Virus record (IMG/VR): IMGVR_UViG_3300037882_003777
Coordinates: 1 to 29,338 of that record
From: a virus
Strand: one strand, 5' to 3'
DNA length: 29,338 bases
Shown: piece after piece, positions 4,586 through 27,541 of the stretch
Layout of the letters: every line of letters starts with the position of its first letter
Position numbering within the stretch: the stretch's first letter is position 1
The notes under the pieces: model-generated
The model's database searches: none
Seen by the model: only the letters and a program-made list of their open reading frames with translations
Told to the model about the DNA's origin: nothing
Position numbers and translations under genes: made by a program

Positions 4586-5509
4586 ATGCCGAACAAGGAA
4601 CAACTGAGATTGCTGATGTCTACAAATAAGGTTGCGGACATAGCAACTATTTTTGGCGTGCATAAACGAACAGTTGGTCGTTGGATAAGCGAACACAATT
4701 TATCCTACGAGGAAGTGAGATTGTCCAATTATCCATCGTCCTTGACGGCGGCACAAAATGAATTCATAATCGGATCTCTGTTAGGTGATGGCTCAGTGCG
4801 AAAAGATGGATCTTACAAATTATCCCAATCGAAGAAACGAAAAAAATACATTGACTATGTTTTCCAAATTATGAGTCCATTCGCAAAATACTACGCTAAG
4901 GAAGTTTGGACCATTCCGAGAAAGAAAAAAGGGCAAATCATCGGGAGATCAGACCGACATACCGAGGGGTACTCAGTCTCCACAATTGTCCACCCTGTTT
5001 TCCGGGAACTAAGAAGTATTTGGTACAAAGAAGGGGTTAAAATTGTACCTGAAGGTGTGAAACTAACTCCATTTTCTTTGAGTGTTTGGTATATGGACGA
5101 TGGATCTAATCGAAATTCAGGTGCATCAAAAGATATTCGACTGAATACTCAATCATTCTCTATGGAAAATGTGCGAAAATTGTCACGGATGTTAGAACGA
5201 GACTTAGGAATTAAATCATCCATTCAAAAGGACAAGGGAGAACAAGCCATCATTAGAGTAGGTGCAGGCAATTATTTTAAGTTCATCGATATTGTGAGAA
5301 ATCACGTACAAAAGATTGATTGCTTCTCTTATAAAATCAACACAAGTCAAGTCCCGAAAGACAGACGCTTTATAGATAAACAAACCAAGGAATCAGTTGT
5401 AAAACTGTACGAAAAATACTCTCAAATGAAAATAGCATCTATGCTTGGCATTAGCCAATCTTCTGTTAGCAACATTATCCAAACTTCAGTTGGCGGTTGT
5501 CAGGTCTAA
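4586..5509 (+). CDS. LAGLIDADG homing endonuclease with terminal helix-turn-helix domains
   Basis: This 307-residue protein carries two LAGLIDADG-type motifs, FIIGSLLGDGS near residue 55 and LSVWYMDDGS near residue 165. These helices form the dimer-like interface and provide the metal-binding acidic residues. The N-terminus (about 1-45) reads as a helix-turn-helix (VADIATIFGVHKRTVGRWI), and so does the C-terminus (MKIASMLGISQSSVSNII). Homing endonucleases cut an allele lacking the gene and are copied in by repair. The gene is clearly richer in A+T than its neighbours, has its own promoter, and its stop overlaps the stop of the convergent neck gene. It therefore appears free-standing in a gene boundary. 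The flanking genes look intact, so an intron or intein is not indicated. Confidence 0.9.
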   Translation: MPNKEQLRLLMSTNKVADIATIFGVHKRTVGRWISEHNLSYEEVRLSNYPSSLTAAQNEFIIGSLLGDGSVRKDGSYKLSQSKKRKKYIDYVFQIMSPFAKYYAKEVWTIPRKKKGQIIGRSDRHTEGYSVSTIVHPVFRELRSIWYKEGVKIVPEGVKLTPFSLSVWYMDDGSNRNSGASKDIRLNTQSFSMENVRKLSRMLERDLGIKSSIQKDKGEQAIIRVGAGNYFKFIDIVRNHVQKIDCFSYKINTSQVPKDRRFIDKQTKESVVKLYEKYSQMKIASMLGISQSSVSNIIQTSVGGCQV

Positions 5510-12963: not shown

Positions 12964-13980
12964 ATGAGCGATTCACATCTCGATCCCTGCAATCCACCGA
13001 CTCAGATCAAAAGTCTGAACATTGATACGCCGCCGACTTATTGTAGAGATGGGGAAGCCACCGAGGAATCGGGGACAATAGACAAAAAGCCGTTTTTGAC
13101 GAATCAAAAGGATGTAACTTCTCGTGACATGTCGTGGTTGGAAGATTCCACCCAAAGTAAATTAGGACAAGGACATAGTGCGTTGTGCGACCCGCAGCAG
13201 ACCGGTCACATTATCAACGAACAGGGCATGTCGCCGCCGGGTAGAAACACAGTTTATCGTTACCAGAAATCCATTCGTGGCACGGACGAGGCAATGAAGG
13301 ATTTGTTCAATGATCTGGTGGTGTTGGATGAATCCGGTAAAGCTCACAAGATTCCCATTATATGGGCGACACAGGAAAAAGCAGTTGCTTTTATTTTGCA
13401 AGACAACACCAGAAAAGACGAGTCCTTAGTAGTCGATAGAATCAGATTGCCGATGTTAGCAATACATTCGGCTAGTCATAATTTTGCGCAGAACCGATTC
13501 ATCTATCACAAGGCAATCGATTATTTAAGAAGCGAGCGACTGGATGGGAAGCCGGGCTTCACGACAAGTGAGAGATACGAAAGAGACACTGTTTTTGGAG
13601 TAACGAGAGGCATCCCAATCGATATCGAGTACAACCTATACGCATGGACTCTGTACGAGGAGGACATGAATCAGATTCTCACTCAAATCGTGACAAAATT
13701 CTCCCCCATAGCATACATACGGGTACGAGGAATCTCATGGGAGATCGGCGTTAAGCTGAATTCGATAGCTAATAACGTCGATTTGGAGCCGGGGGACAAG
13801 AAGGTTCGGGTTTTCAAATATCAGTTCGGATTCACGGCAGAGACATTTGTAGCTCAGCCCATCGTGAGGAAGAAGGCGGTATTGAAAACTAAGATCGAGA
13901 TCACCGACTCTCCGAACGAAGACGACATTACAGAAGTCTTGGCAAGGTTGGAATCGGCAGTAAAGGAATTAGAAGAATGA
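12964..13980 (+). CDS. T4 gp15-like tail sheath terminator / completion protein
   Basis: This 338-residue protein has a core (about 95-300) that follows the gp15 family pattern: VYRYQKSIRGTDEAMKDLFND, HKIPIIWATQEKAVAFIL, RIRLPMLAIHS, GIPIDIEYNLYAWTLYEEDM followed by NQILTQIVTKFSP, and a final VFKYQFGFTAETFV. In T4, gp15 caps the assembled tail tube and sheath and joins the tail to the neck. Relative to T4 gp15 there is an extra N-terminal segment of about 90 residues, probably disordered, with CNPP and CRDG cysteines, and a charged C-terminal helix. The small gene after it overlaps by ATGA. Confidence 0.8.
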   Translation: MSDSHLDPCNPPTQIKSLNIDTPPTYCRDGEATEESGTIDKKPFLTNQKDVTSRDMSWLEDSTQSKLGQGHSALCDPQQTGHIINEQGMSPPGRNTVYRYQKSIRGTDEAMKDLFNDLVVLDESGKAHKIPIIWATQEKAVAFILQDNTRKDESLVVDRIRLPMLAIHSASHNFAQNRFIYHKAIDYLRSERLDGKPGFTTSERYERDTVFGVTRGIPIDIEYNLYAWTLYEEDMNQILTQIVTKFSPIAYIRVRGISWEIGVKLNSIANNVDLEPGDKKVRVFKYQFGFTAETFVAQPIVRKKAVLKTKIEITDSPNEDDITEVLARLESAVKELEE

Positions 13981-14204: not shown

Positions 14205-16562
14205 ATGGCAATTCTAAGGGGATTCCCACCATCTAACACGATTTCGCCAAGCGTCCGAATCACCGAGAAGGATCTGAGCTTCATTGCTCCAGAACAGTCC
14301 TTTCACCGTGCTGGGCTCGTGGGATTTGCAAGCAAGGGTCCGGTTAATGTGCCGACTTTGATTGCCACCCAGAGACAACTCAACACAGTGTTTGGATACC
14401 CGCATCCTGAATCGGGCGATCCTTATCTGATTTACGCTGCGGAACAATACCTGCTGGTGGCTAACGAACTGTACGTGGTCCGAGTGGCCGACGAGGAAAA
14501 TGTTAGCGATGAGCAGGCGCAGATTGCGGAAGTTGACGTGGTATCCGCAGGCGGACAGATCGAGATCATGTCTGCGACTGCCGGTCCGTACACTTTTGAC
14601 GTGGATTCGTTCTTTCGTTGGAGATTGAATGGCGTGCTCCATTCCAAGACGCTTGTTGTTTTGGCTGGCGAATATACCGCTGTCCAACTCGCTGAAGATC
14701 TTAATCTTCAGCTTGTGGGCGACATCGATGGTATCGTATTCATCACTGATGACGGCGACGACTATATCGGCGTGCAGACAACATGGGCTTTCGGTCCCGA
14801 CTCGGAACTTGAGTTTGTCTCCGTGCAGGATGCCATTTATGGCGGCACTGTAATGGCTGGCAACCCGACTGGTCTTGGCACGGGTATGACGCAAGCTTTG
14901 ATCGTCGGCAGCAAGAGCCAGTATCCTGCATCTTACCAGACTGCGGGCGAGTATGACTTCAGTGGATTGACTGGTCTTAACATCGAAATTGTCATCGACG
15001 GCACCGACAACGTGCTCATCGATAACGTGGTGCAGACCATCGACCTCGCCGACCTTGAAGGTGCCGAATACACGGCAGCTGAGGTTGTGGATGAGATCAA
15101 CAGCCAGCGGGCAGAAGAAGATGGATCGCTTCCCGGTGGTTGGACCGCTTATGTTTCGGCAAGCACCAATATCGCCTTCAAGACAGATCACCATGGTCGT
15201 GATGCCAGATTGCTCATCAAGGCTGACAGTACCGCCGCAAGCCTATTCGGCCTAGACAGCGTGACCAAGGTTGGCGACAGTCCGATTCGTGATTCCAGTG
15301 CAACGGACGTTGCTGCCGCAGGCCGCATCAACGGCGATGCCAACGACACGGACGCAGTGACTTTCACTATCTCCGCTGACACAGCAGGTATCGACGGCAA
15401 CAGCACGCAAGTCGTGATCGAGAATAACATTCGTGAAGGCAACTTCTCGATGCAAGTTTTCAACAACGGTGTCGAGGTGGAGTCTTGGGGTGCCTTGGTT
15501 AAGGATGAGAATTCACGGTTCTACGTAGAGACCTTCTTGGCTCTGGTGTCCGATTGGATCAGGGTCACTGACAACACTTCCAACACTGCCCCTCCACTGG
15601 ATGGAACTTACAGTTTGGCTGGCGGGTCGGACGGCATTCCTTCAGATCCTGATGATCAGGACGGATTGATCATCGGCAACAGGCTTGCGTACACGGGCAT
15701 GTATGCCTTGAGCGAGCCAGAGCAAATTGACATCGATTTGATCGCTGTCCCGGGTCACTCCAGCACAGCCGTTGTGACGGCATTGCTCGATCTGTGCCAA
15801 AACGTCCGCATGGATTGCATGGCCATCATCGATCCTCCGTTCGGTCTTACTGTCAACGAGATCGTAGCTTGGCAGAATGGCACGCATCCTTTGAACACCA
15901 CAAGATTCGACAGCGACTTCGGTGCTCTTTACTGGCCGTGGGTTAAGATTCGTGACAATTTCAACCGTGTTGACATTTGGGCACCGCCTTCGGGCGCTGT
16001 CATGTCAACCATAGCCCGGTCCGACCAACTGTCGGCACCGTGGTTTGCACCAGCCGGTGTAAACCGTGGCACGGTTCCGAACATCAACGACGTATTCAGC
16101 AGGCCGACGCTAGAAGAGCGTGACCTGATGTATGGGTACAGAAACGCAATCAACCCGATTGTGCAGTTCGTGGACTTTGAAGGGTTTGTCATCTGGGGCC
16201 AGAAGACGCTGCAACGTAGGCCGACCGCCCTTGACCGTGTGAACGTCAGAAGACTGATGTTCGTGATCGAGAAGCGAATCCGCACGGCGGCAAGACAGTT
16301 GCTATTCGATCCACATGATGAGATTCTTCGTCAGAAGTTTGTCAGAATTTCGACCTCGATTTTGTCTGAGATTCAAGTTGGTCGTGGCGTGAACGACTTC
16401 CGTGTCAAATGTGACGAGGAATTGAACACCGCAGACGTAATCGACCGCAACGAAATGCGAGCACGCATTGGCGTTCAGCCCATTAGAGCGGCTGAATTCA
16501 TCTTCATCGAGTTCTCGATTCACAGAACCGGTGACTTCGGTGAAAACACCGACACGTTCTAA
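14205..16562 (+). CDS. Tail sheath protein (gp18-like)
   Basis: This 785-residue protein forms the contractile sheath. The N-terminus SPSVRITEKDLSFIAPEQ, then GLVGFASKGPVNVPTLIATQ followed by RQLNTVFGYPHP and LYVVRVAD, is the classical start of phage sheath proteins. The C-terminal domain has the conserved PSGAVMSTIARSDQLSAPWF, GVNRGTVPNINDVFSRPT, LQRRPTALDRVNVRRLM and FIFIEFSIHRTGDFGE segments. A variable insertion of roughly residues 120-430, rich in Asp, Gly and Thr, would form outward domains as in T4 gp18 (659 residues). A GGGAG signal precedes the ATG. Confidence 0.95.
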   Translation: MAILRGFPPSNTISPSVRITEKDLSFIAPEQSFHRAGLVGFASKGPVNVPTLIATQRQLNTVFGYPHPESGDPYLIYAAEQYLLVANELYVVRVADEENVSDEQAQIAEVDVVSAGGQIEIMSATAGPYTFDVDSFFRWRLNGVLHSKTLVVLAGEYTAVQLAEDLNLQLVGDIDGIVFITDDGDDYIGVQTTWAFGPDSELEFVSVQDAIYGGTVMAGNPTGLGTGMTQALIVGSKSQYPASYQTAGEYDFSGLTGLNIEIVIDGTDNVLIDNVVQTIDLADLEGAEYTAAEVVDEINSQRAEEDGSLPGGWTAYVSASTNIAFKTDHHGRDARLLIKADSTAASLFGLDSVTKVGDSPIRDSSATDVAAAGRINGDANDTDAVTFTISADTAGIDGNSTQVVIENNIREGNFSMQVFNNGVEVESWGALVKDENSRFYVETFLALVSDWIRVTDNTSNTAPPLDGTYSLAGGSDGIPSDPDDQDGLIIGNRLAYTGMYALSEPEQIDIDLIAVPGHSSTAVVTALLDLCQNVRMDCMAIIDPPFGLTVNEIVAWQNGTHPLNTTRFDSDFGALYWPWVKIRDNFNRVDIWAPPSGAVMSTIARSDQLSAPWFAPAGVNRGTVPNINDVFSRPTLEERDLMYGYRNAINPIVQFVDFEGFVIWGQKTLQRRPTALDRVNVRRLMFVIEKRIRTAARQLLFDPHDEILRQKFVRISTSILSEIQVGRGVNDFRVKCDEELNTADVIDRNEMRARIGVQPIRAAEFIFIEFSIHRTGDFGENTDTF

Positions 16563-16635: not shown

Positions 16636-17184
16636 ATGGCACAGCAGATGGGCATCGGCAAGCTGGGTGCTCCCCGAGTGATACTGAAAAGAAAATTCAG
16701 GTTCACTCTGGAGATTTCCACGCCTTGCGGGTTCATCCCGAAATCGTTCGTTAAGTCAGCCGCAAGGCCGAATATCGAAATTGAAGAGACGGAATTGCAT
16801 TTTTTGAATGCCGTGACGTGGATACCCGGGAAAGGCAAATGGCAACCGATACAAGTTACTTACTATGACGCTGCCGACCAAGACCTTACGGGATTATACA
16901 GTTGGCTGGCTACGGTGTATGACTTCACCAAGCCAGTTGAATTGAGACAAAGTGAAAAAGCCGGGTGGGCCGGCACCGCACTGTTGACAATGTACGACGG
17001 ATGCGGTAATCCGCTGGAGTTCTGGCTTTTGCAGAACTGCTTCCCAACATCGGTAAATTTTGGAGAACTCGCATACGAGGATTCCATGTACTCCGAAATC
17101 CAGCTAACCCTTAGATATTCGGACGTGATTTACGCACCGGGTTGTAGGGGCGGACAACCGCAACCCTGCTGCATCGGCTGCTAA
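16636..17184 (+). CDS. Tail tube protein paralogue 1 (gp19-like)
   Basis: This 182-residue protein forms, or contributes to, the inner tail tube. The order MGIGKLGAPRVILKRKFRFT, ARPNIEIEETELHFLNAVTW followed by IPGKGKW, then a WLATVYDF helix, MYDGCGNPLEFW and LTLRYSDVIY matches gp19-type tube subunits. Its C-terminus carries C-RGGQPQP-CC-IG-C, a cysteine pattern shared with the next two genes and not typical of tube proteins. The ribosome binding site is GAGGTAAGAA. Whether it or a neighbour is the main tube subunit cannot be told here. Confidence 0.85.
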   Translation: MAQQMGIGKLGAPRVILKRKFRFTLEISTPCGFIPKSFVKSAARPNIEIEETELHFLNAVTWIPGKGKWQPIQVTYYDAADQDLTGLYSWLATVYDFTKPVELRQSEKAGWAGTALLTMYDGCGNPLEFWLLQNCFPTSVNFGELAYEDSMYSEIQLTLRYSDVIYAPGCRGGQPQPCCIGC

Positions 17185-17199
17185 CACATAGAGGTAAAA

Positions 17200-17808
17200 A
17201 TGGCTAGAGACCGCAAACCAATGGGTATCGGCGTTATCGGGCAACCGGACATGGTGTTCAAGCGTAAGTTCCGCTGGACATTTGAATTGTTTGGTTTCTG
17301 CGACAACGAGAAAAACGTAGTACCAGAACACTTCGTCAATGTGGCTTCGAGGCCGAACCTTGAAATCGAATCGACGGAAATAAATCACCTTAACGCAAAA
17401 ACGTGGATTCCCGGCAAGGCTTCATGGCAGTCGATCACTGTTACTTACCTTGATGTGGCCCACGAAGAAATGCGAAGCCTGTGGAATTGGCTTGCCACCC
17501 TCTATGACTTCACCGACCCAATTCGTCTCACCCAAGGTGAGAGAAGGGACTGGAACGCCACCGGCGTATTGAGCATGTACGATGGTTGCGGCGTTCTTCT
17601 CGAAGGCTGGCAGTTGCAAAGAGTGTTCCCGACCAACATCAACTTCGGCGACCTCGATTACTCACAGTCAGACATCGCCACAATCGAATTGACGCTGCAA
17701 TACTCCGACGTAAAGTACCGGTCTTACTGCCCAGATTACACTCCGCAACCATGTTGTGGCGGTTGTGGCACCACCGTAAAACAACCGCAATTTGCAAGCT
17801 TTGTTTAA
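17200..17808 (+). CDS. Tail tube protein paralogue 2 (gp19-like)
   Basis: This 202-residue protein begins MARDRKPMGIGVIGQPDMVF and shares all landmarks of paralogue 1: SRPNLEIESTEINHLNAKTW followed by IPGKASW, then WLATLYDFTDPI, MYDGCGVLLEGW and ELTLQYSDVKY. The C-terminus has the same C-x7-CC-x2-C arrangement (C-PDYTPQP-CC-GG-C) followed by 13 further residues absent from its neighbours. A GAGGTAA signal sits before the ATG. Confidence 0.85.
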   Translation: MARDRKPMGIGVIGQPDMVFKRKFRWTFELFGFCDNEKNVVPEHFVNVASRPNLEIESTEINHLNAKTWIPGKASWQSITVTYLDVAHEEMRSLWNWLATLYDFTDPIRLTQGERRDWNATGVLSMYDGCGVLLEGWQLQRVFPTNINFGDLDYSQSDIATIELTLQYSDVKYRSYCPDYTPQPCCGGCGTTVKQPQFASFV

Positions 17809-17835
17809 GAATGGAAATAACAGTAGGAGTTAGAA

Positions 17836-18402
17836 ATGTCTGAAAAAATCCCAATGGGCATAGGCAGTCTCGGATTCAAGAATCTGATCTTCAAGAGGAA
17901 GTTCAGATTCACATTCGAATTGAACGACATCTGCGGAGGCCAGAGTGTGCCAAAGCATTACGTAAAGACAGCAGCCCGTCCAAACCTCGACATCGAAGAA
18001 ACTGAAATCAACTTCTTGAACGCCAAGACTTGGATTCCCGGCAAGGCTTCGTGGCAAGAGATGACGGTAACGTACATTGACGTGGCCACGGTTGACGCAG
18101 CGCCCTTGTTCAACTGGCTGGCTTCTGTTTACAACTTCACCGACCCGATCAACCTACAGATGGGCTCCCAGAGGCGTGACTATACGGCCACGGGAATTCT
18201 CAAAGTTTGGGACGGGTGCGGTCAGTTGCTTGAAATGTGGGAAATGAAGGATGTGTGGCCGAAGGGCATCAACTTCGGCGATGTTTCTTACGATTCGTCC
18301 GAGGAAATGACCATCGAATTGTCCATGCGTTATTCGGAAGTCAAGTATACGCCGGTTTGTCCTGCCTTCCAAATTCAGACGTGCTGCTCGCCGTGCAACT
18401 AA
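17836..18402 (+). CDS. Tail tube protein paralogue 3 (gp19-like)
   Basis: This 188-residue protein has the same fold signature: MGIGSLGFKNLIFKRKFRFT, ARPNLDIEETEINFLNAKTW followed by IPGKASW, then WLASVYNFTDPI, VWDGCGQLLEMW and ELSMRYSEVKY. The C-terminus C-PAFQIQT-CC-SP-C repeats the cysteine pattern. AGGAGTTAG precedes the ATG. A strong terminator follows, so the first three paralogues form one expression unit. Confidence 0.85.
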   Translation: MSEKIPMGIGSLGFKNLIFKRKFRFTFELNDICGGQSVPKHYVKTAARPNLDIEETEINFLNAKTWIPGKASWQEMTVTYIDVATVDAAPLFNWLASVYNFTDPINLQMGSQRRDYTATGILKVWDGCGQLLEMWEMKDVWPKGINFGDVSYDSSEEMTIELSMRYSEVKYTPVCPAFQIQTCCSPCN

Positions 18403-18421
18403 AACTGATAGTTACTACGTT

Positions 18422-18450
18422 AAAGGTGGCCGATATCGGCCACCTTTTTT
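18422..18450 (+). terminator. Rho-independent terminator between tube genes 3 and 4
   Basis: AAAGGTGGCCGAT at 18422-18434 and its perfect complement at 18435-18447 form a GC-rich palindrome that runs into six T (18445-18450). It would sharply reduce transcription into the fourth tube gene. Confidence 0.85.
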
Positions 18451-18463
18451 ATTAAGGAGACAC

Positions 18464-18991
18464 ATGGCAAAGATGGGTTTGCAGTTCGGCCTTGAAAAAA
18501 CCGACGCCTGTTACAAGAGAACCAATCGTTGGTTGTTCACCGTTCCTGAAGTGTGCGGCGATGATACGCCCAAGGGGGTGAATAGTCTGCCGCCCACCCG
18601 GGCCGCAAGACCGTCCCTGTCTTTCAAGGAAATAGAAGTAAGACACTTGAACGAGGATGTGTTTTTCCCCGGCAAGCCAGATTGGAAACCCATCACCCTC
18701 ACCCTGTACGATCTGAAGGTGAGATCCGCTCATCCGGTGTTCAAGTGGCTACGGCAGGCATACGAGCCCGAGATTGGCAAGTTCTACGAACCGTTGGCCA
18801 AGGATTTGTTCAAAGAATGCCGGTTGGAGTTGTACGACGGTTGCGGCAAAAATCTTGAGACGTGGATCTACGAAGACGCTTGGCCGCAAGCCGTCAATTT
18901 TCAAACTCTGGACATGTCGCAGAGCATGGTTTTAACATGTGAAATTACGCTAAGATACGCAAGGTCATATATGCTTGGATTGGTAAGTTGA
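18464..18991 (+). CDS. Divergent tail tube-like protein, paralogue 4
   Basis: This 175-residue protein starts MAKMGLQFGLEKTDACYKRT and keeps the tube-fold landmarks in weaker form: ARPSLSFKEIEVRHLNEDVF followed by FPGKPDW, then LYDGCGKNLETW and LTCEITLRYARSY. It lacks the C-terminal CC-x2-C tail and has a distinct PTRA loop. It lies behind a terminator with its own AAGGAGA, so it is probably made at a lower level. A specialised tube end, tail initiator or completion ring is a plausible role; that is inference. Confidence 0.75.
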   Translation: MAKMGLQFGLEKTDACYKRTNRWLFTVPEVCGDDTPKGVNSLPPTRAARPSLSFKEIEVRHLNEDVFFPGKPDWKPITLTLYDLKVRSAHPVFKWLRQAYEPEIGKFYEPLAKDLFKECRLELYDGCGKNLETWIYEDAWPQAVNFQTLDMSQSMVLTCEITLRYARSYMLGLVS

Positions 18992-24287: not shown

Positions 24288-24342
24288 ACTCTTATACCAC
24301 CGACAATGAATTCACGTTCATCATAGTAACGAGGAGAAAAAT

Positions 24343-25512
24343 ATGGCAGATGAGGTCTTCAGACAATCGAGGAAGAAAATCACTCCAGACGAATTGAGAG
24401 ACACTCCCGGGGAAAACTCAAATCCTCTGGATCAGATTAAGTCCATCCAACAAGCGGTGGCCAAGGAAACCGGCAGGGACGTGCCGCAACCATTCGAGGC
24501 CCCCTTTCAGATCGAGGGCAACATTCCGCCAGAGTTCCGCAGCGCATTGATGCGCAAGGCTCAACAGGGTGGAATGCCAGAACCTCGGCCCGTGGCACCG
24601 AAGAAGCCGGAAGACGACGAGAACTTCGAGACTTTCGAAGCGCCGCCCGACAAGCCGAGGCCGCACGTCACAAACAAACAGCGGGCTACACCCGATGCCA
24701 AAATACGTGTGCAAGGCACGGATGCTCTGGAAGGGTTGCTTCAGAAGTTGGCCGACAAGCACCAGTGGGAGCAGTTCACGTGGCCTTCCAAAGGCAAGTT
24801 CTACACGGACATTCCCGAGACGGTGCATGTGCGGACCATGACGGGTGAAGAGGAGCAGATTCTCTCGACGCCAAGATGGGTGAAAAAGGGCCTTGCCATC
24901 GACATGATTTTTCGTCGTTGCATCAGGGAGACCATCGACACGGAGCAATTGCTTTCCGTTGACAGAACAAACTTGTTGATCTTCCTCCGTGGTATTTCTT
25001 ACACGCCCGAATACGACGTGGAGATCAAGTGCCCCTCATGTTCGATCAAGTTTGCGCACGTCATCGACCTAAACGATCTGGAAATTGACGTGTGCCCGGA
25101 CGATTTCGGGCCTGACCGACTGCGGGGCAAGTTGCCGGTGAGCAAATTCAACTACAGTTACCGTCTTGCCACTGGTGCCGACGACCAAGAAGTGACCAAT
25201 TACCGTGAGCGACGAATTGGCCAGTGGGGTGATCAGGGAGAAGACGATACGCTCCTCTACCGAACAGCTTTGTTGCTGGACGAGATCGAAGGTGTTTCCA
25301 TGAAAAAAGAATTGGCAGTGCTTCTTAAGAAGTTGCCGATTCAGGACGTGGGCCACCTGCGAAACGAAATCAACCAACCGCCGTTCGGCGTAGATACGAT
25401 GATTCCAATTCTGTGTCCTAACGGAGGGTGCTCGGAGGAGTTCAAGATCGACCTCCCGATGGAGGCAAATTTTTTCTTCCCAAGGAAGAAGGAGCCAAGG
25501 AACCAAGTGTAG
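24343..25512 (+). CDS. T4 gp26-like baseplate hub protein
   Basis: This 389-residue protein begins after GAGGAG. Residues 1-130 are Pro/charge-rich and likely disordered. From FTWPSKGKFYTDIPETVHVR onward, including MTGEEEQIL and the conserved INQPPFGVDTMIPILCPNGG region, it matches the T4 gp26 baseplate hub family. CPSC (230-233) and CPNGGC (358-363) look like a split zinc site. In T4, gp26 helps assemble the central hub. The 3' end carries a canonical slippery heptamer at 25467 that would let a fraction of ribosomes enter the -1 frame and read to 25688. The zero-frame end, FFFPRKKEPRNQV, is short. Confidence 0.7.
   Translation: MADEVFRQSRKKITPDELRDTPGENSNPLDQIKSIQQAVAKETGRDVPQPFEAPFQIEGNIPPEFRSALMRKAQQGGMPEPRPVAPKKPEDDENFETFEAPPDKPRPHVTNKQRATPDAKIRVQGTDALEGLLQKLADKHQWEQFTWPSKGKFYTDIPETVHVRTMTGEEEQILSTPRWVKKGLAIDMIFRRCIRETIDTEQLLSVDRTNLLIFLRGISYTPEYDVEIKCPSCSIKFAHVIDLNDLEIDVCPDDFGPDRLRGKLPVSKFNYSYRLATGADDQEVTNYRERRIGQWGDQGEDDTLLYRTALLLDEIEGVSMKKELAVLLKKLPIQDVGHLRNEINQPPFGVDTMIPILCPNGGCSEEFKIDLPMEANFFFPRKKEPRNQV
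25467..25490 (+). promoter_or_regulatory. Candidate programmed -1 frameshift site
   Basis: A AAT TTT at 25467-25473 is an X XXY YYZ heptamer in the zero frame of the gp26-like gene. TTCTTCC at 25474-25480 can pair with GGAAGAA at 25484-25490 to form a hairpin directly downstream, closer than the usual 5-9 base spacer. GGAGG at 25461-25465 lies just upstream. Confidence 0.6.
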
Positions 25513-25688
25513 AACTTTGGCAAACGCTCATGGAGGAGCTTTTCTTCTTCCAATACCACATGCGCATGTCCAAGCAAGATTGCATGAGCTTGCCAGTGCA
25601 TGAACGGAAATGGCTTATACAGCGTTTCATCGCACAAAAGCGCAAGGAAAATGAGGCAATTGACAAAGCCAAGAAACAAAAACATTGA
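25473..25688 (+). CDS. -1 frame C-terminal extension of the hub protein
   Basis: In the -1 frame the reading continues FLPKEEGAKEPSVELWQTLM then EELFFFQYHMRMSKQDCMSL then PVHERKWLIQRFIAQKRKEN. The YHM...LPVHERKWLI pattern looks like short hub or tail-assembly proteins that follow gp26 in related phages. Frameshift fusion would give about 448 residues. An internal ATG at 25531 without a clear ribosome binding site could alternatively give a separate 52-residue protein. Either way the frame is protein-like across the overlap, which favours use of the slippery site. Confidence 0.65.
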   Translation, partial: FLPKEEGAKEPSVELWQTLMEELFFFQYHMRMSKQDCMSLPVHERKWLIQRFIAQKRKENEAIDKAKKQKH

Positions 25689-25875: not shown

Positions 25876-26616
25876 ATGGCCACAAAAGAAAGATATCAAA
25901 ATCCGGCCGTAGGCGACACCGTTAATCTAAGGATGTTTACCTACAACAGCAACAATCTCAGTGACCTTTCGAGCGTCGAGGAAGTAAACATCTACTTCCT
26001 CGACCCCGATAACGTAAGTGCTGATGTTCCTGATGGCCGACGCCTAGTCGAGACCTTTGAAAGTGATGCTGTTACCAACAGCGACACGGGCACTTATCTG
26101 TTGCCCGTGTTGTTGGAGAATCTGCGTTACACCATCGGGGATTACTTCGATATCTGGACTGTCAAAGCCGTCGATGGCGAGCCGTCGAGCACCATCGTCA
26201 ATCGGTTTGCGGTTTATCCAAACCTGTGGTACACGACACCAATCCCGGTCGTCTATGATTTCAATTTCCACATGCAACCGAACAAGATGCGTCAAGGTTC
26301 GGTGCAATTCTTGATCATAGAGATCAACCCCAACACGCCTACTGCCGGGGATCTCCGGCAATACTACGAGAATCTGGCAATCGTTTCTGACATCCGGGTT
26401 TCCATTGAACAAACCTGTGGCGAGTGTCTTCCTGCTGAGGAAGATCTACGTCTTATCGTAGACAAAGAACTCATCGATTATCGAGAGAAACGCCACGGTT
26501 ACTACAAGTTCGACACACGTGAGTTGTCTTGTGGAATTTACGACATTTGGTTCCAGTTGGATTTCGGTGACAACCGATACATCTCGGACCGTTTCAAATT
26601 TCAGATTTATGATTAG
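25876..26616 (+). CDS. Beta-rich virion or baseplate protein
   Basis: This 246-residue protein is strand-rich throughout: VNLRMFTYNSNNLSDLSSVE, a GTYLLPVLLENLRYTIGDYF segment typical of Ig-like phage domains, VYDFNFHMQPNKMRQGSVQF with LIIEINPN, and a final DIWFQLDFGDNRYISDRFKF. It probably has two or three beta-sandwich domains. The gene lies between hub and tube-like genes, so a baseplate or fibre-attachment role is likely by context. Eight bases separate it from the next gene. Confidence 0.7.
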   Translation: MATKERYQNPAVGDTVNLRMFTYNSNNLSDLSSVEEVNIYFLDPDNVSADVPDGRRLVETFESDAVTNSDTGTYLLPVLLENLRYTIGDYFDIWTVKAVDGEPSSTIVNRFAVYPNLWYTTPIPVVYDFNFHMQPNKMRQGSVQFLIIEINPNTPTAGDLRQYYENLAIVSDIRVSIEQTCGECLPAEEDLRLIVDKELIDYREKRHGYYKFDTRELSCGIYDIWFQLDFGDNRYISDRFKFQIYD

Positions 26617-26623
26617 AGGTAAT

Positions 26624-27541
26624 ATGGAACAAAACCCATTGCACGACATGAAGCAAAAATTACTCCAGCAAATGAATGACACCAAGAATGATGTCAAGAC
26701 ATATAAGAATGCCCGTAGTATGGGCATTGGGAAGTTGGGAGAGCCTGCCATGACGTTTGTGCGGCAGTTTCGCTGGGTCATGACAACCAGCGGCGTGCCC
26801 GAGCACTTGATGAACAAGGTCGATTTCGATTTCGTCAGCAAGACTATCAGCCTTCATTGTATCGAAGTCATTGCACCCGAAGATACAGATGTGTTGATCG
26901 ACAACTGGCTGGAAAAGGATCTGACGCAAGAGAATCTTGTTTTCACCACATATGATGGTTTAGGTACTCCCCTTTACGAAATGAAGTTCAACAACCTCAC
27001 TTTGCTAGAGGACAAGGCTTCCTTCGATTATTCTGTGTCGGGTCTTAGCATAAGAAAATTGAAGTTCGCCTACGACGAGAAAGAGAGGGTTTTTCTAGCC
27101 AAAGGCGACCCGAGAATTCCCAAGAAAAAGGGATTTAGTTGGAAATTCAGAGTTGGCCAAGACTTGAAGCTGTTTGATGTGAAATCGGGCCAACAACCCA
27201 ACTTGGAAATAGAAGAGACTGAACTCAACTTCTTGAGTTCCAAGACTTGGATTCCCAGCAAGGCTAAATGGACTGATCTCGACCTGATCATGGATCGAAA
27301 AGCTTGCAAGGCTTTGATGGCGGGTCTCCTGAATGGAGAAAATGAGGATTTGCATTTATACATTTATGATTCTTCGGACCGACCAATCGAGTGTTGGACA
27401 CTCAAATCAGCCAACTTAGTGAAGAGTGTGGCCGATGACGAGAAGGTTCCTTTGGTTACTGAAACGGACAACAAGAAAATGTACTTTGTAACCGTCAGAT
27501 ACAAAGAAGCGTTTTGGGTGGTACAAGGTCGGAAGGAGTGA
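26624..27541 (+). CDS. Double tail-tube-domain protein, probable baseplate tube or hub
   Basis: This 305-residue protein follows GAGGTAAT. Residues about 33-150 begin MGIGKLGEPAMTFVRQFRWV, as in the tube proteins at 16636-18402, and include FTTYDGLGTPLYEMKFNNL. Residues about 160-305 repeat the pattern with GFSWKFRVGQ, QPNLEIEETELNFLSSKTWI followed by PSKAKW, then IYDSSDRPIECW and FVTVRYKEAFW. Thus two gp19-like domains are fused. In contractile tails the hub and proximal tube proteins (gp27, gp48, gp54) use this fold to start tube polymerisation. The neighbouring hub gene supports a tube-initiation role, which is inference. Confidence 0.75.
   Translation: MEQNPLHDMKQKLLQQMNDTKNDVKTYKNARSMGIGKLGEPAMTFVRQFRWVMTTSGVPEHLMNKVDFDFVSKTISLHCIEVIAPEDTDVLIDNWLEKDLTQENLVFTTYDGLGTPLYEMKFNNLTLLEDKASFDYSVSGLSIRKLKFAYDEKERVFLAKGDPRIPKKKGFSWKFRVGQDLKLFDVKSGQQPNLEIEETELNFLSSKTWIPSKAKWTDLDLIMDRKACKALMAGLLNGENEDLHLYIYDSSDRPIECWTLKSANLVKSVADDEKVPLVTETDNKKMYFVTVRYKEAFWVVQGRKE

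Follow-up and report, generated by a model that had tools for sequence, protein, structure and literature searches.

A probable −1 frameshift on a conserved T TTT TTC heptamer in a gp26/gp51-family gene of an uncultured T4-like phage relative

Positions 24343-25688 of IMG/VR virus record IMGVR_UViG_3300037882_003777 (positions 1 to 29,338, hereafter the window) very probably form a single tail assembly chaperone gene in which a −1 shift on T TTT TTC would give a short and a long form of the protein, a reading to which we assign a probability of about 0.92 from sequence comparison. The initial annotation had already suggested a programmed −1 frameshift joining a gp26-like hub protein to a C-terminal extension, and our comparative tests strongly support that suggestion. 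The features discussed below, all on the + strand, are as follows.

24343..25512, +: zero-frame ORF, short form (TAC-N, gp26/PF12322 family), 389 aa; PF12322 E=2.1e-9
25461..25465, +: GGAGG 5′ of the slip site; not conserved, role doubtful
25467..25473, +: A AAT TTT, the heptamer first proposed, overlapping T TTT TTC; varies in relatives
25470..25476, +: T TTT TTC slippery heptamer, probable −1 shift site; in phase in 73/73 and 57/57 loci
25471..25493, +: 10-bp hairpin first noted (25471-25480/25484-25493), overlapping the slip site; z −0.8
25476..25688, +: −1 frame extension (T/TAC-C domain), 70 post-shift residues and stop; 19-homologue alignment
25484..25551, +: candidate downstream stimulator stem (25484-25493/25542-25551); z −3.06 versus shuffles

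The two reading frames and their conservation

The upstream ORF starts at an ATG with GAGGAG at 24331-24336 on its 5′ side, and its 389-residue product ends in ...EANFFFPRKKEPRNQV. As first reported, A AAT TTT at 25467-25473 stands in the X XXY YYZ phase of this ORF, and the downstream frame is −1 and open across the slip site (25422-25688 in our ORF reading of the window). Computed from the coordinates, the fusion product would comprise 448 aa, 378 from the zero frame and 70 from the −1 frame. Slippage at A AAT TTT or at T TTT TTC would give the identical protein (...EANFFLPKEEG...), and peptides therefore cannot separate the two sites. Elsewhere, the window encodes a LAGLIDADG homing endonuclease-like protein (4586-5509; PHROG 11023, E 9e-29), a tail sheath stabilizer-like protein (12964-13980; PHROG 227, E 6e-17) just 5′ of the sheath gene (14205-16562), four consecutive tail tube paralogues (PHROG 4542) that follow the sheath gene at 16636-18991, and a fifth, weakly tube-like protein (E 0.0012) at 26519-27541, downstream of it.

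Scanning viral contigs with the hub protein returned 23 loci, and the phage collection added LR756511 and more distant phages. Wherever the contig of a close relative is long enough, the second ORF (ORF2) lies in the −1 frame and is homologous from KFFLP to its end. A second scan, with an ORF2 profile, gave 80 loci (63 distinct) that share the −1 layout, none being fused in frame among the matches listed. In all, 73 distinct loci conserve the protein encoded by the −1 ORF. The alignment of homologues proposed at the outset thus found the −1 frame and the in-phase heptamer kept and no in-frame fusion in the clade, which upholds the predicted pair of 389- and 448-residue products. Bacterial genomes scanned with the hub alignment produced one match only, which was unrelated, and the hub of XacN1 had no match in viral contigs.

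Slip site, stimulators and competing explanations

T TTT TTC is invariant and in phase in 73/73 distinct loci, which are related sequences falling into 20 clusters at 70% identity, so that the count is not one of independent events; codon usage of the same genes predicts the heptamer at about 13-14% per locus, both here and in a set of 57 cyanophage-type loci. The codon before it varies (AAT, AGT, GGT, TCT or GAT). Directly 3′ of the heptamer, 25477-25481 (TTC CC) is also nearly invariant, the third Phe codon being TTC in 72 of the 73 loci. The in-phase heptamer of the initial annotation was rightly seen, but the conserved site is T TTT TTC at 25470-25476 rather than A AAT TTT. That the shift occurs instead at A AAT TTT (25467) is very unlikely: the window and many relatives do have this heptamer in phase, but it is missing from many others that have the −1 layout, where its position reads A AGT, C AAT, G AAT, G GGT or A TCT TTT, while T TTT TTC never changes.

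Another possibility is that ORF2 is a separate gene, translated from an internal ATG (25530/25560) or by re-initiation after the first stop, its overlap with the upstream ORF being incidental. Equivalents of ATG 25530 are kept in close relatives, ORF2 has been annotated as a gene of its own in S-PM2, immuto, pf16 and OLIVR6, and, since an internal ATG is present in ORF2 at most window-clade loci, a degree of separate initiation is possible. As a full account of the overlap we consider this very unlikely. The −1 frame was described as having no good start, and the candidates in the window bear this out: GTG 25428 is touched by GGAGG with zero spacing, and ATG 25530, 25560 and 25566 have no Shine-Dalgarno sequence upstream. 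Rather than a well-initiated second gene, some homologues have no second-frame start codon at all, with no ATG, GTG or TTG in ORF2 ahead of the conserved core in 7/73 loci (no ATG in 17/73) and none of the three near the beginning of ORF2 in 13 of the 57 cyanophage-type loci. In 16 close relatives, the stretch that runs roughly from the first stop to the earliest conserved ATG shows 0.12, 0.15 and 0.42 substitutions per site at the three −1-frame codon positions, and this third-position excess is a protein-coding signature lying upstream of the ATG. The separate-gene reading is further opposed by the presence of the heptamer in phase at all loci.

RNA polymerase slippage on the T6 run could also in principle make a second product, and the run of six T's does exist. 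Such slippage would need no single codon phase, however, and the X XXY YYZ phase is kept at all loci while the preceding residue varies; six T's are moreover short for efficient polymerase slippage, and we regard this explanation as highly improbable. The chance that an assembly error or a decayed gene, with one frame broken by an indel, produced the layout is practically nil, as nothing was found in its favour and the homologues already refute it, finished genomes and dozens of independent contigs sharing this layout.

Neither of the two further elements first noted around the slip site proved to be a conserved stimulator. The GGAGG of the initial annotation is present upstream, but it does not hold up as a conserved stimulator, since only 14/73 relatives have a Shine-Dalgarno-like motif at −20..−4. 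The hairpin, described as 7 bp beside the site, also exists; it in fact comprises 10 bp, takes in part of the slip site and is likewise no conserved stimulator. It is unlikely to stimulate in the window either, because the slip site itself pairs in it and a ribosome positioned there would have opened it. The downstream stem 25484-25493/25542-25551, separated from the heptamer by 7 bases, is a possible stimulator. It folds better than shuffles in several close relatives too, with a clade mean z of −1.1 versus −0.4 for the control, but covariation lends it no support (8.6 bp with a locus's own arms versus 8.4 bp with arms swapped between loci), and purine-rich Lys/Glu codons opposite Phe codons may explain the pairing. 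No conserved stimulator could be established across the clade.

Identity of the protein and its wider family

The upstream ORF matches Pfam T4_baseplate (PF12322) with 37.8 bits against a curated cut-off of 24.5, and PHROG 150 'baseplate hub' with E=9e-13. In T4, PF12322 covers gp26 over its whole length and gp51 (249 residues) at residues 1-201. In a profile comparison, the window family and gp26 match at 96.9% across 185 columns. For the predicted model of the short form (mean pLDDT 79), the best solved-structure match is the HK97 tail assembly chaperone gp13 (2ob9; Z 5.6, rmsd 3.8); a Z of 5.6 is weak alone, but the match has some weight because it stands clear of the next row (Z 2.8) and covers the domain (94 of 104 residues). 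Foldseek against the PDB found no match below E 1, and the sequence search of solved structures with gp51, hub and extension returned nothing relevant. The extension is predicted as three helices (mean pLDDT 87) and had only weak Foldseek matches among viral models; its Pfam matches to Tma16, DUF6760 and ApaG are weak and below cut-off, and were rejected.

The gene pair is flanked directly by the tube gene and the tape measure gene in LIS04 and Flavobacterium phage immuto; its neighbours in SP-15 are the tube gene and the gene of a large putative tail protein. We identified no tape measure gene in the window, next to ORF2 or elsewhere. This position in the relatives, which is the place of lambda G/GT, together with the HK97 gp13 match suggests that 'hub' is probably a misnomer, and that what was first called a hub protein is more plausibly a tail assembly chaperone of the lambda G/GT type, probably not a structural hub.

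The same arrangement extends well beyond the window clade. Cyanophage-type gp26 loci have T TTT TTC in phase one codon ahead of the stop in 57/57 distinct cases, each with a short 'gp51' ORF in the −1 frame; in S-PM2, gp26 ends TCT TTT TTC GCA TAA and the annotated 'gp51' is a 57-residue −1 ORF. In-phase T TTT TTC or T TTT TTT was found in S-PM2, HTVC008M, RaK2, XacN1, pf16, ACP17, VH7D, OLIVR6 and Bhz51. Cyanophage ORF2 is homologous to the C-terminus of T4 gp51 (hhalign 98.4%, E 1e-14) and has no homology to any part of gp26. The window extension gave no significant result in direct profile comparison with T4 gp26/gp51 and a weak one with cyanophage ORF2 (best E 7e-4 at Z=10000), so that its profile link to T4 gp51 would run only through intermediates, the last link being weak. 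Short genes annotated 'baseplate hub assembly catalyst' occur in S-PM2 (the 'gp51' at 4191-4364 of L141) and OLIVR6 (2681-2821 of L227); these are probably the −1-frame part of gp26 and not genes of their own.

T4 itself has two PF12322 genes, the other six phages searched having at most one recognisable copy each. Its gp26 ends TTC TTT, lacks the heptamer and has a −1 frame that closes immediately; its gp51 is fused in frame with the heptamer absent. The pair amounts to a natural test of the −1 reading.

In another group (SP-15, LIS04, GXN1, LR756508, Mel-JY01, L124/L125, immuto and RM378) the +1 frame carries the second ORF instead, at a TTT codon in the homologous position. ORF2 of this group matches the window profile in SP-15 (5e-10), L124 (3e-7) and Mel-JY01 (4e-6). 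A −2 slippage in the SP-15 group was rejected, because in most members the tRNAs would re-pair poorly, and +1 at TTT fits better by eye. The loci at which related chaperone genes have ORF2 in +1 (or −2) at such a TTT codon include L002 (3644-3967), L003, L004, L005, L006, L124, L128 and L130. The part of the literature that we covered yielded no published description of the +1 group.

We lean towards the view that one family reaches two products at the same spot by three routes, namely −1 on T TTT TTY (window clade, cyanophages, jumbo and many T4-like phages), +1 at Phe TTT (the SP-15, immuto, Mel-JY01 and RM378 group), and duplication with in-frame fusion (T4), and that the cyanophage 'gp51' is no gene of its own.

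Proposed mechanism and relation to known systems

Normal reading of 24343-25688 would give the 389-residue short form. A minority of ribosomes would shift backwards by one base at T TTT TTC, both Phe-tRNAs re-pairing as UUU UUU, and would go on in the −1 frame to make the 448-residue long form with its C-terminal helical domain. The analogy with lambda gpG/gpGT would assign coating of the tape measure protein to the short form and recruitment of tail tube subunits to the extension. We infer the occurrence of slippage, its rate and its role in assembly, as well as, by the same analogy, the set ratio of the two forms that was first proposed.

The likeness to the −1 shifts of lambda and P2 tail-assembly genes, also drawn at the outset, is upheld by the comparisons as far as sequences can tell. 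As in lambda gpG/gpGT and P2 E/E′, a chaperone gene in the window is overlapped towards its 3′ end by an extension in the −1 frame; those systems make a short major and a long minor product, and the likeness is one of layout, with no sequence similarity claimed. The lambda slip site is G GGA AAG. With T4 gp26/gp51 the window shares PF12322 and the short and long forms, but T4 divides these between two genes, of which the longer is an in-frame fusion, whereas the window has one gene with a frameshift. The 'reduced gp51' of cyanophages and marine vibriophages is like the window in having T TTT TTC and a short ORF read in −1 relative to gp26, and unlike it in its shorter extension, its heptamer one codon before the stop and its annotation as a separate gene. 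The hub genes of SP-15, LIS04, GXN1, immuto, Mel-JY01 and RM378 likewise pair a gp26-like gene with an overlapping second ORF, which is in +1 (or −2) and not −1.

A 2016 review states that G-T frameshifting is widely conserved except in T4 (PMC5009743). The PRFect paper (PMC10885494) credits Vladimirov, Gautam and Davidson 2022 with T4-like phages that have one short and one fused long chaperone gene, and PMC12846349 treats poly-T −1 signals in T4-like TAC-N genes as known, citing the same work (Virology 566:9). The T4 two-gene solution can therefore not be presented as unreported, this published work covering T4-like chaperones; from our reading of the sequences, its short and long T4 genes would be 26 and 51. 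The system is thus known in outline, and the window clade, seen here in an uncultured relative of T4-like phages, is a new member of an ordinary kind.

Two annotations are corrected by these results, that of a widespread 'baseplate hub' gene and that of the separate 'gp51' genes in cyanophages. Sullivan 2010 reported that cyanophage gp51 lacks the first 200 residues, the passages found giving no explanation (PMC3037559), and the −1 frame offers one for why this protein appears cut down to its C-terminus. The 130 related natural variants of the heptamer also form a test set for the requirements of the T TTT TTC site. More broadly, a single family appears here to have moved between gene duplication and frameshifts of either direction.
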